From a virus, in the IMG/VR virus record IMGVR_UViG_3300020470_000017, positions 1 to 49,848 of that record: a stretch of 49,848 nt of DNA; one strand, written 5' to 3'. Below are positions 29,740 through 32,886 of this stretch, piece by piece (the stretch's first letter is position 1; each line of letters opens with the position of its first letter). The translations under genes were made by a program, and so were the position numbers. Under the pieces are notes generated by a model. That model was not told where the DNA came from, did no database searches, and saw only the letters and a program-made list of their open reading frames with translations.

Positions 29740-30574
29740 TTAGTTGTCCCTTGAGTAGAGGGATGAATTACGAGCCTCTCGACTGCCGTTCCGATTCAAA
29801 CATTGAGATCCAATCGTTTTCTGCTTTGGAAATGTGTGCGCACACGCTTCCTTGCATAATTCGCAATTGGAACTCTGAGACACGCGCGTTTCATGGATTT
29901 CTCCAACTACGCCACTCCGCTTCTCTGTTTTCCTCTTCCTGTCACTCAACCGCGACCTCTCAGCCATCGGTTGTCTTGAGTTGTAGTGTTGCTACACTCG
30001 CAATCCCAGCGATAACCGAGACTTCAAACATCCGAAGGGATGGAAGTCTCTTTCTCGCTTCAAAGTGGCCTTTCGGCCTGATGATTGAAGGCATTGTTAC
30101 CATTTACTCGTAAAGAGTTGTGGCTTGGTATAATTTAACCATTTTACCATCCTGGACCTTCAATCGAAAAAATGCCCTGTCTCGGGCCTGACGAGGTTTC
30201 GCTCGCTCCGTTTACCCTCTCGGGCCTCGGTGTAGTTTAGTTGGGTCTCTCGACCCGATGCATACACACTACGAACGCTTGCTCGTAGTCTCTCTCAATT
30301 GCGAGAGTCACACAGTCCTTGCGTTGTGTGGGTGCATGGTAAGTATGGTGAGTAGTTACTTCACAACCGAGCACTTGGCTTTCCCGTAGGAGTGCGGTAA
30401 GGCAAGTAACAAATAGCCTATTTTCCACTGAGCGTCAGGACTTTGTTCTCCCGCTGCTGAACTCAAAATTGTTCGCAGTAGCCGGGGCCTGCTTGCTCGC
30501 TGGGAGCTGAGGTCGTGCGCTCCTGTCACGGCCACCTTTGACAGTGGTCTTGTGCTTTCCACTGGAGTTATGTG
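29740..30574. other. Non-coding stretch with hairpin cluster
   Basis: I see no convincing gene here. An AT-rich patch lies at about 30126-30150. Four adjacent hairpins occupy 30243-30331: GGGTC/GACCC, CTACGA/TCGTAG, CTCTC/GAGAG and CACACA/TGTGTG. CTCGGGCCT occurs twice nearby (30181 and 30219). It may be part of an origin or an untranslated RNA. Confidence 0.5.
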
Positions 30575-30634
30575 AATCAAATCAAATCGAATCAAATCAA
30601 ATCGAATCAAATCAAATCGAATCAAATCAAATCA
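30575..30634. repeat. 15-bp iteron array AATCAAATCAAATCG
   Basis: Four near-perfect tandem copies of AATCAAATCAAATCG, itself built from AATC/AAATC subunits. It sits between the tRNA gene and the hairpin cluster, close to where gene direction switches, which fits an origin-binding iteron. No spacers, so not a CRISPR array. Confidence 0.85.
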
Positions 30635-30646
30635 CTGAAATAACTC

Positions 30647-30656
30647 CATGTTAAGT
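30647..30656 (-). promoter_or_regulatory. ACTTAACATG directly after the tRNA 3' end
   Basis: The CCA of the tRNA runs into CTTAACATG, so the motif and the tRNA end share bases. No gene follows; the frame closes after four codons. A second copy without ATG (ACTTAACATA, about 30773-30782) precedes the tRNA. Confidence 0.6.
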
Positions 30657-30732
30657 GGCGGGTCATGCAGGGTTCGAACCTGCGGCCTTCCGGTTAAGAG
30701 CCGGACGCTCTACCTGACTAAGCTAATGACCC
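30656..30732 (-). tRNA. tRNA-Lys (anticodon CTT), CCA encoded
   Basis: A full cloverleaf: 7-bp acceptor GGGTCAT/ATGACCC, D arm with TAGTCAGGTAGA, anticodon stem CCGG/CCGG with loop CTCTTAA (CTT), and T arm GCAGGTTCGAACCCTGC. Discriminator G followed by encoded CCA. No intron. Serves AAG codons. It lies downstream of the RNase P RNA candidate on the same strand, so both may be transcribed together and the tRNA matured by that RNA. Confidence 0.97.
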
Positions 30733-30801
30733 GTTAAAGCCCCGTAAGAGGCTTTGTCGTTTTTATGTTGAGTTATGTTAAGTGGGGCTAAAGCCCCTCT
30801 T

Positions 30802-31097
30802 AATCACACACATTTGGTCAGCACCGTGGATGAACTTCCTCGGATGCACACAGCCCTAATGGGTTTCCAAGTGTGCATCCGCGCAACTGCCCGACCCTCG
30901 CCCGAGGCGTTAGGGTCGTTCATAGCCCACCTTCTGTTCACTCCTTAGAGTGAGTTGCATATCTACCGAGAGATCGTGGTCCACCGGATGTCCTGGTAAT
31001 CGACTCGAAGCCACCTGATGGTGGTCCTCAAGACGCAGGGCCGGTTTCCCTTCGCTGTTTCCGTTCTTTCTCTCCTTACCGCTGCTGGTGTGTGATT
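30802..31097 (-). ncRNA. rnpB-like: RNase P RNA candidate with circularly permuted order
   Basis: On the minus strand GGTAGATATGCAACTC (30952-30967, like CR-IV) is followed by GAACAGAAGGTGGGCTATG (30921-30939, like CR-V ACAGAAxxxGGCUUA). Then come a closed P2/P1-like hairpin (CGACCCT/AGGGTCG, 30892-30918), an 11-bp P3-like hairpin (30841-30881) and CCGAGGAAGTTCATCC (30828-30843), the archaeal CR-I type. CR-I normally lies 5' of CR-V; here it is 3'. A perfect 10-bp helix joins the two ends (31088-31097 with 30802-30811), where P9 would be. CR-I and CR-V can pair as P4 (GUUCAU/AUGAAC, CCAC/GUGG). Confidence 0.6.
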
Positions 31098-31400
31098 TGG
31101 CGAATAGTCCCTTCCTCTGCTCCATGAGGGGAGGGGATGTACGACTTACTGTTTCCAGGCGTTCGGACCTCGGGACAACTATCCCAAGTGCTACCCGAAC
31201 TAGGCTGGTTCGCTTCCAGCCCATTTGTCGCACTACCTTCTACGGGGGCAAGAGGACGCTAGTCCTCGAAGCTTTGCGAATCCCGTAGGTGTTCTGCCGG
31301 TGGAGCTTGCTTCCCTAGATCCACTCGACGCTTTGCCTCGCGTCGCTGTCCAGGGCGCTCCGTGAAGCCCCTCAGGGCAACCGGCTGAGGGCTATTGCCC
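31098..31400. other. Highly structured non-coding block
   Basis: Dense inverted repeats and no plausible gene. Examples on the minus strand: CTACGGG/CCCGTAG enclosing GAGGAC/GTCCTC, GGCTGG/CCAGCC, GTTCGG/CCGAAC, CGACGC/GCGTCG and an outer CCGGT/ACCGG. It may be one or two further structured RNAs, or a 5' extension of the RNase P candidate. I could not match it to SRP RNA. Confidence 0.5.
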
Positions 31401-31406
31401 TCTGGT

Positions 31407-31944
31407 ACATAGGCCATCGGCCCTCTAGATGAGGGACGAAAGCCACTGTATGTTGAGTTTTGAGGGATATTTTCCCTCTTCTACCATATAGGCCATCGGC
31501 TCTCTAGATAGAGAGCAAATGGCATTTTTTGCTTGTTCCAGGGGCGTTAGCCCCCGCTTACACTACATAGGCCATCGGCCCTCTAGATAGAGGACATAAG
31601 TTAGCCATACATAGCGTAATTACTGCTACATAAGCCATCGGACTACATAAAGTAGCCCAAAATCCACCTTTTCTAGGCTTTCTTGGCCCCTACTTCGTGG
31701 AGATCCCAGACACCTGGGCATGCCAGAGCTGATACATCCTACCATAAGTTAGTAATAAGTAGCGTTAATTCTGTCCTATATGCCATCGGACTACATAAAG
31801 TAGCCCATCAACAGCGTTTTCGATTCTTGCTGTAGGCGTTTGTCAGCGATCTGATGCCTGGGTGTGGCTCGAGCTGACTATTCTTGATGTAAGTTAATGC
31901 CATATAGGGACATTACTGCCCTATACGCCATCGGAGTTTATGAC
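31407..31944 (+). repeat. Array of six GCCATCGG elements, five with covarying hairpins
   Basis: GCCATCGG occurs at 31413, 31492, 31571, 31634, 31782 and 31927, each after an ATA-rich hexamer such as TACATA. The first five are followed by a short hairpin whose arms change together: CCCTC/GAGGG, CTCTC/GAGAG, CCTCT/AGAGG, CTAC/GTAG and CTAC/GTAG. Spacings are 79, 79, 63, 148 and 145 bp. The array ends at the TFB gene promoter. It could be repeated small RNAs or operator/leader elements. Confidence 0.75.
31937..31944 (+). promoter_or_regulatory. YWWANGAC-type box (TTTATGAC) for the TFB gene
   Basis: Lies 21 nt before the ATG at 31966, matching the spacing of the other boxes of this class in the right half. 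It overlaps the last GCCATCGG element. Confidence 0.5.
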
Positions 31945-31965
31945 CTCAACCCTTATCCGATTACC

Positions 31966-32886
31966 ATGAGTGATGCCGTCTCACTTGGAGTTCGAGCGTT
32001 CGAGGACACCTATTGTCCAATAGGAAAACCAGCCGGATGCGTATTTGAGGGCGGTATGATCGTGCATGACGACGCAACTGGCGAGGCTGTGTGCGGGTTG
32101 TGCGGAACAGTTGCTCCAATTCTCGCCACTGTGACCTCACCAGACAAGAATGAGGCAGGGGAGTTCGTTGGACCTGCTCGTCTCGCAAAGACGGGGGCTA
32201 AGCGGGGTCGTGAAGATGCTTTTCGCAGACTTTTCGGTGGAACAGAGTGGAACAAGTCGATGCAAGTCACTCAGAGAGTAGAGGGTTTGAGCGACAAGTT
32301 ATCCCTTTCTGCCAACGCCCAAGCAGAAACCCTACGAGTATTCAATGAGATGTTAGACGCTGGATTCCACAAAGGCGGAACTGGTCTGGACGCAGTTGTA
32401 TTAGCTTCAGCCTATTTCGGTGCGAGACATGACTACAACTTCATACCAATAGAGAAAATCTCTGATGCGACCTCTACTGAAACCAAAAAGGCCAGGAGAG
32501 TAATCAAAAGAGCCAGAAAGGACAGGATCGTCTTGAGTGTGACTCCCTCTGCGAGAGAAGTCCTAGATTCTCACTTAGGCCGTTATCCGCACTCGGCAGT
32601 TGTCCAGGAGATGGCAAGAAAGTATTCAGATTTACAGATTCCTGGTCTTAGACCATCGATACACGCTTCTGGCGCATTGTACATGGCTCTACGCAACTTT
32701 GGCAATAGTAAGGAAAAGCGTACAACTCAGGAGCAAGTAGCAACGGACTTCCAAATGTCACGCAAAACTGTGGGGCAGGGCTACAGGGCTTTGATAGAGG
32801 CAACGGAAGTTAGGACTAATCCTCCAAAAGATGCAGATATAGGCTTAACTAAAGCACAATTGCGTCTATTGAGACGACTGAGATAG
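31966..32886 (+). CDS. tfb: Divergent transcription initiation factor B (TFB)
   Basis: 306 aa. The N-terminal zinc ribbon has an altered first knuckle (C-P-I-G-K-P-A-G-C) and a normal second one (C-G-L-C-G-T-V, about residues 43-49), followed by a linker and two cyclin-like repeats (about 125-205 and 215-285), the second ending in an HTH (F-Q-M-S-R-K-T-V-G-Q-G-Y). Archaeal TFB bridges TBP-DNA and RNA polymerase. An element-borne copy could redirect host polymerase to the special promoters. I chose ATG 31966 because of the upstream box; the frame is open to 31897. Confidence 0.9.
   Translation: MSDAVSLGVRAFEDTYCPIGKPAGCVFEGGMIVHDDATGEAVCGLCGTVAPILATVTSPDKNEAGEFVGPARLAKTGAKRGREDAFRRLFGGTEWNKSMQVTQRVEGLSDKLSLSANAQAETLRVFNEMLDAGFHKGGTGLDAVVLASAYFGARHDYNFIPIEKISDATSTETKKARRVIKRARKDRIVLSVTPSAREVLDSHLGRYPHSAVVQEMARKYSDLQIPGLRPSIHASGALYMALRNFGNSKEKRTTQEQVATDFQMSRKTVGQGYRALIEATEVRTNPPKDADIGLTKAQLRLLRRLR

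Follow-up and report, generated by a model that had tools for sequence, protein, structure and literature searches.

A candidate circularly permuted archaeal RNase P RNA, limited to the catalytic domain, on a mobile DNA element

We analyzed the whole of a 49,848-bp IMG/VR virus record (the window). A non-coding strip of the window, which contains a tRNA, also encodes a putative RNA of ~296 nt. This RNA is likely a circularly permuted archaeal RNase P RNA that consists of the catalytic (C) domain only, resides on a mobile archaeal DNA element, and would use the RNase P proteins of its host. Reading from its 5' end, a region resembling J5/15 and P15 comes first, followed by a CR-IV-like strand and CR-V (GAACAGAAGGUGGGCUAU); after them come P1, closed into a hairpin, then P3 and CR-I (GAGGAAGUUC). 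This is the block order of the archaeal RNase P core, rotated around P1, and the blocks are plausibly spaced. RNase P is near-universal and one of life's oldest catalytic RNAs, and to our knowledge its RNA has always been described with the same order of conserved blocks. The features of the window RNA, read from 31097 to 30802, are as follows.

30802-31097, minus strand: the permuted RNase P-like RNA as a whole, ~296 nt, recognized by block and helix order, whole-region folding (z = -3.6), and canonical-trained score (54.0)
31088-31097, minus strand: terminal helix, 5' arm AAUCACACAC, paired with 30811-30802 in the minimum-energy fold, probability near 1 for most pairs
31083-31087, minus strand: P7 3' strand CAGCA, paired with 30823-30819 (UGCUG) in the minimum-energy fold; named by its position relative to J5/15 in the canonical alignment
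31081-31080, minus strand: CG following the P7 3' strand, P5 remnant (assignment uncertain)
31075-31079, minus strand: J5/15-like GUAAG, placed between P5/P7 and P15; putative counterpart of the canonical CAAGG of CR-III
31069-31074, minus strand: P15 5' strand GAGAGA, 6 bp with 30973-30968 in the minimum-energy fold; P15 assigned by position
30968-30973, minus strand: P15 3' strand UCUCUC, minimum-energy fold
30959-30967, minus strand: J15/2, CR-IV-like GGUAGAUAU (canonical UAGUCGAAU), by comparison with 30 canonical RNAs
30953-30958, minus strand: P2 3' strand GCAACU, six Watson-Crick pairs with 30888-30883; counted together with P2 of the canonical RNAs and of the second case (L056, below)
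30939-30952, minus strand: hairpin CACUC-UAAG-GAGUG between P2 and CR-V, fold probability 1.0; presumably P19-like, judged by position with bacterial RNase P as guide
30922-30939, minus strand: CR-V block GAACAGAAGGUGGGCUAU, local match to Rfam RNaseP_arch (9.7 bits, below cut-off)
30937-30932, minus strand: J2/4 ACAGAA within CR-V, conserved letters kept
30931-30924, minus strand: P4 3' strand GGUGGGCU within CR-V
30892-30918, minus strand: closed P1 hairpin, 7 + 4 bp in the minimum-energy fold, linking the ancestral 5' and 3' ends
30883-30888, minus strand: P2 5' strand AGUUGC, paired with 30958-30953
30841-30881, minus strand: P3 hairpin, 11 bp (30881-30871 with 30851-30841) in the minimum-energy fold, abutting CR-I
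30841-30836, minus strand: J3/4 GAGGAA, conserved letters kept
30828-30841, minus strand: CR-I GAGGAAGUUCAUCC (GAGGAAGUUC = 30841-30832), holding the P4 5' strand (30836-30829)
30819-30826, minus strand: P5 remnant and P7 5' strand CGGUGCUG, unconstrained fold
30802-30811, minus strand: terminal helix, 3' arm GUGUGUGAUU, minimum-energy fold, exact 10 bp

As the canonical reference we aligned 30 ordinary RNase P RNAs from archaea of the phylum to which the Bathyarchaeota contig described below belongs. Their order is P1 5', P2 5', P3, CR-I/P4, P5, P7, S domain, J5/15, P15, J15/2 (UAGUCGAAU), P2 3', ACAGAA, P4 3', and P1 3'. Aligned to this order, the window RNA traces the canonical circle, with its opening at P7 and its closure at P1. 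The first-pass annotation had placed CR-IV-like and CR-V blocks 5' of a P3-like hairpin and CR-I, and this arrangement was borne out on the minus strand (30939-30922; 30881-30841; 30841-30832). The perfect helix it described between 30802-30811 and 31088-31097 is exact over 10 bp, and the pairing of CR-I with CR-V that it proposed as P4 forms 8 bp in the window's unconstrained minimum-energy fold. The same fold yields P1, P3, P15, P7, and the terminal helix; P2 is missing from it because P2 crosses P4 and the two cannot be drawn together. This crossing of the 6-bp P2 with P4 is the native RNase P pseudoknot. The P1 and P2 stems had been taken for one closed hairpin, which holds for P1 (30918-30892), whereas P2 is a separate helix (30958-30953/30888-30883). 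Similarly, circular permutation is supported but not its placement at P9: the new ends lie at P7, and because P8-P12 are absent, the terminal helix continues P7.

Some features of the fold depart from the canonical RNAs. In the canonical bulged-U register, P4 of the window has two mismatches, and a bulge-free or bulge-shifted P4 forms instead. The interior of P15 holds P16-like hairpins (P16 assignment uncertain) in an insert of ~95 nt, and on the 3' side just 17 nt lead from P4 to the terminal helix. Between P4 and the terminal helix, no S-domain elements P8-P12 were found on either side, and a location elsewhere in the window was rejected when an S-domain profile searched against it gave no match. 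With its ends at P7 and no S domain, the RNA is better read as C-domain-only than as a full RNA opened at P9. The motif GGUAG (30967-30963) was considered as the L15 CCA-binding loop and dropped, its position falling in J15/2.

We scored the locus with a scheme trained solely on canonical RNAs, in which position weights for CR-V and CR-I were combined with P4, P1, P2, and P3 pairing in the permuted arrangement. The locus scored 54.0, compared with 29.8 for the runner-up position in the window and 52.1 for the best of 14,000 dinucleotide-shuffled windows (both strands). With the motifs held fixed, P1, P2, and P3 of equal total length arose in 2 of 200,000 shuffles. The canonical profile's best nhmmer match in the window was the CR-V block itself (30939-30922). 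Standard models gave weaker results. No Rfam family reached its cut-off over the window RNA, RNaseP_arch (RF00373) giving 9.7 bits against a cut-off of 84 under relaxed limits. R1, a covariance model of the canonical RNAs that was cut and rejoined at P1, aligned in the right register at 10.1 bits, although chance matches elsewhere in the window reached 12.5; this match is by itself weak and not significant at the scale of a 50-kb window. A second model (R2), built from the canonical RNAs and L056 with trimmed helices, was too intolerant of insertions and missed the locus. An improved score after rejoining had also been anticipated in the first-pass annotation; a sequence-only profile showed no gain with the rejoined window RNA. 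These weak results are probably due in part to the lack of an S domain, to the additional hairpin, and to the length of the P15 interior, and covariance models miss permuted RNAs by design. Because standard models fail and rejoining shows no gain, the case rests on the order, the core motifs, and the helices in two elements. We did not file the RNA under RF00373 because both score and order fail there, the native order P1-P3-CR-I ... CR-V-P1 being rotated around P1.

A strict permuted-order pattern, shaped on the window RNA, was run over genomes of ~85,000 species, in which we estimate ~0.1 chance matches to be expected. Exactly one match was obtained, in an intergenic region of a 9,577-bp contig from a Bathyarchaeota metagenome-assembled genome (MAG) (L056, also listed as L013). 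The P4 letters common to both cases (GGGCUA with GAGGAAGUU) were demanded by the pattern and thus are not independent evidence of kinship. The remaining features of this second RNA are as follows.

L056, P1: CCUAGC/GCUAGG, beyond the letters the pattern asked for
L056, P2: CCCAC/GUGGG, likewise beyond those letters
L056, P3: CACAC/GUGUG, likewise beyond those letters
L056, P15: CUGCUC/GAGCAG, preceded by AGCAA (J5/15), assigned by position
L056, J15/2: UAAGAUUAAUACC, by our reading a good match
L056, 1546-1553 with 1776-1783: P7, AGAGGCUU/AAGCUUCU, by our reading directly beyond P4/P5

P4 of L056 has eight pairs, with the bulged U in its canonical place and compensatory changes relative to the canonical RNAs; by our reading there is again no S domain inside the P7/P4 interval. 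Both cases retain J2/4 ACAGAA, J3/4 GAGGAA, and the P2/P4 pseudoknot. The canonical-trained score of L056 was 60.3, and R1 gave 18.9 bits (contig E = 8e-5) over the span from CR-IV to CR-I. Within the L056 genome, the permuted RNA ranked first for RNaseP_arch at 17.3 bits, below the cut-off of 84. Across 12 rows (window, L056, and ten canonical RNAs), 98.3% of cells in P1-P4 were standard pairs and 20 of 24 pairs changed on both sides, counts that lean towards structure, since MAFFT misaligned permuted with rejoined canonical cores and each row was therefore trimmed to its helices manually. No other DNA or protein similarity between the window and the L056 contig was detectable. Positions 1200-1500 and 1790-1930 of L056 are further structured, apparently non-coding stretches flanking the permuted RNA, as in the window.

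The first-pass annotation had proposed a search for relatives with covariation; beyond this second case, no third was found in IMG/VR or the genomes under the patterns tried. A loose permuted pattern gave eight matches in IMG/VR, all judged by eye to be coding or motif-only; the exact CR-V 18-mer gave four there, with no Rfam RNA and judged to be chance; and relaxed patterns gave nothing or one match within an ORF. Among secondary weak RF00373 matches in Thermoproteota, those inspected had no CR-V/CR-I pair and looked coding or unrelated. Searches for relatives through the proteins neighboring the window RNA or through a ligase encoded on L056 returned none, nor did phage or plasmid records contain similar DNA.

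These searches bear on whether the RNA is a cellular gene. In the search of L056 relatives, 25 of 31 genomes carried an ordinary RNase P RNA above cut-off. The L056 MAG itself had none, which an incomplete bin could produce. One protein neighboring the L056 RNA was missing from the relatives, and the permuted pattern turned up nowhere else when 397 further genomes from the phylum and 256 from the class were searched. We therefore rejected the permuted RNA as the cellular RNase P of a clade, given that close relatives have the ordinary gene and those phylum and class genomes lack the pattern. Because the relatives carry ordinary RNase P RNAs and lack this neighboring protein, these data suggest that both cases are accessory DNA.

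Two neighboring genes inform the setting of the window RNA.

30656-30732, minus strand: tRNA-Lys(CTT), on the strand of the permuted RNA and 70 nt downstream of it; may serve as its substrate
31897-32886, plus strand: protein resembling TFIIB, with a zinc-ribbon-like N-terminus (Pfam TFIIB, 23.0 bits against a cut-off of 23.6)

The tRNA noted just downstream in the first-pass annotation was confirmed as to location. The TFIIB-like gene opens a rightward gene block after the non-coding strip, and its product supports an archaeal host for the window element. Of the window genes that were scanned, none was identified as encoding an RNase P protein. Directly upstream of the permuted RNA lies a second strongly folded non-coding RNA (31105-31445, minus strand; minimum free energy, -157.5; z = -5.7) with no Rfam match, whose 3' half has a multi-branched cloverleaf look and is closed by GUGCGAC/GUCGUAC. 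Further upstream (31395-31935, minus strand), repeats with the core CCGATGGC plus TATGTA form two sets with spacings of 79 and 145-148 nt; several precede GC-rich hairpins and are possibly promoters for a row of small RNAs. At 30778-30803 (minus strand), the start of a hairpin, UUAAG-A-GGGGC-UUUA-GCCCC-A-CUUAA, overlaps the 3' end of the permuted RNA by two bases; this hairpin is a possible 3' processing or termination signal. Many leftward genes (272-30654, mostly minus strand) have start codons in the context TGAACATG or TTAACATG. TNAACATG has 50 matches in the whole window versus 8 expected, and this type of signal looks like a common start-site or promoter signal of the leftward half only. 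Perfect short tandem repeats are found at 1-71, the very end of the record (CAGGTTCTTCCACTG, 4.7 copies), and at 30574-30633 (GAATCAAATCAAATC, 4 copies).

POP5-RPP30 normally sits on the C domain of RNase P, and the S domain is the half that recognizes the tRNA substrate. In the model that we favor, the ancestral 5' and 3' ends would be joined through the closed P1 hairpin, and the new ends would lie beyond P7, where the S domain should branch, clamped by an interrupted 15-bp terminal helix. A circular RNA is not needed because this helix holds the ends together. The RNA may be cotranscribed with the neighboring RNAs and bind the POP5-RPP30 pair of the host; it would then cleave pre-tRNA-like RNAs, including the tRNA-Lys of the element itself, independently of S-domain proteins. 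For bacterial RNase P RNA, cleavage by the C domain without the S domain, at lower efficiency, is known (PMC5839562). The arguments for and against are about evenly balanced, in our judgment, for the broader proposal that archaeal viruses or plasmids carry a catalytically active, naturally permuted, C-domain-only RNase P RNA of their own, in which the new ends replace the S domain and S-domain proteins are dispensable.

The main functional rival, which we hold to be unlikely, is a non-catalytic mimic: the rotated C domain would titrate host POP5-RPP30 and lower host RNase P during infection, or use the proteins for stability only. The missing S domain, the altered P4 bulge register of the window, and the failure to identify RNase P proteins among the window genes scanned are consistent with such a role, but a decoy for C-domain proteins could do without J2/4 ACAGAA, J3/4 GAGGAA, and the P2/P4 pseudoknot, all of which both cases keep. 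A change of job like that of RNase MRP, in which a P/MRP-type C domain acts on new substrates such as host or viral mRNAs and not on tRNA, appears less probable still. It would fit the loss of the tRNA-recognition half and the long P15/P16 insert of the window (~95 nt); against it, tRNA-Lys is adjacent, and archaeal RNase P RNAs without an S domain exist in Pyrobaculum (PMC4919922). We consider it improbable, to a greater degree, that only the gene is permuted, its transcript being cut and ligated into a circle that works as such or after reopening. Such processing has an archaeal precedent in the permuted SRP RNA of Thermoproteus (PMC4731332), and L056 encodes an ATP-dependent DNA/RNA-type ligase, yet when leader and trailer were cofolded, neither case showed a bulge-helix-bulge. 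Since the ends pair in a plain helix, the simpler model is a linear RNA that this helix clamps. Finally, a structured RNA with some other role, in which RNase P-like motifs came together by chance, would agree with the failure of standard models, with selection from a large scan that favors rare coincidences, and with our estimate that the permuted-order motif pattern should occur a few times across all IMG/VR, but it is the least likely reading, given how rarely shuffles supplied the helices on top of the motifs, that none of the 14,000 reached the score, and that an archaeal intergenic second case has the same helices.

If the preferred reading of a permuted, C-domain-only RNase P RNA is true, the catalytic domain stands on its own and can be reopened in evolution, and the window RNA offers a small ribozyme from nature with which to probe the requirements of the C domain and POP5-RPP30. 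RNase P would join the parts carried by viruses, and this would be the first natural circular permutation of its RNA. Engineered RNAs demonstrate that RNase P RNA can be rotated at P1, but a 2023 list of permuted RNAs found in nature includes hammerhead, twister, 5S rRNA, group II introns, tmRNA, rRNA, tRNA, and SRP RNA, but not RNase P (PMC10085705). Text searches of the literature, subscription papers being outside their scope, likewise returned no natural permuted RNase P RNA, in agreement with the first-pass annotation, which knew of none. A natural swap of this kind seems not to have been described before.

Compared with the archaeal RNase P RNA of RF00373, the window RNA has the same CR-I, CR-IV-like, and CR-V blocks, J2/4, J3/4, P1, P2, P3, P4, and P2/P4 pseudoknot, with a P15 assigned by position; it differs in its rotated order, closed P1, ends at P7, lack of P8-P12, and score (9.7 versus 84 bits). 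The minimal type P/T RNase P RNA of Pyrobaculum and relatives retains the catalytic domain and lacks nearly the whole specificity domain (PMC4919922). The window RNA is also confined to the C domain, but type P/T RNAs are cellular genes in native order, whereas it is rotated and on a mobile element. Thermoproteus tenax SRP RNA, from a permuted gene with a bulge-helix-bulge and circularized (PMC4731332), is likewise a permuted structural RNA gene in archaea, but the RNA is a different one, and neither a bulge-helix-bulge nor circularization is seen here. At the joint itself, a parallel comes from engineered permuted human H1 RNAs, built as tethered substrate constructs and closed at P1 (PMC13022451): the loop closing P1 joins the ancestral ends at the same place as in the window RNA, although H1 in this form is man-made and human.
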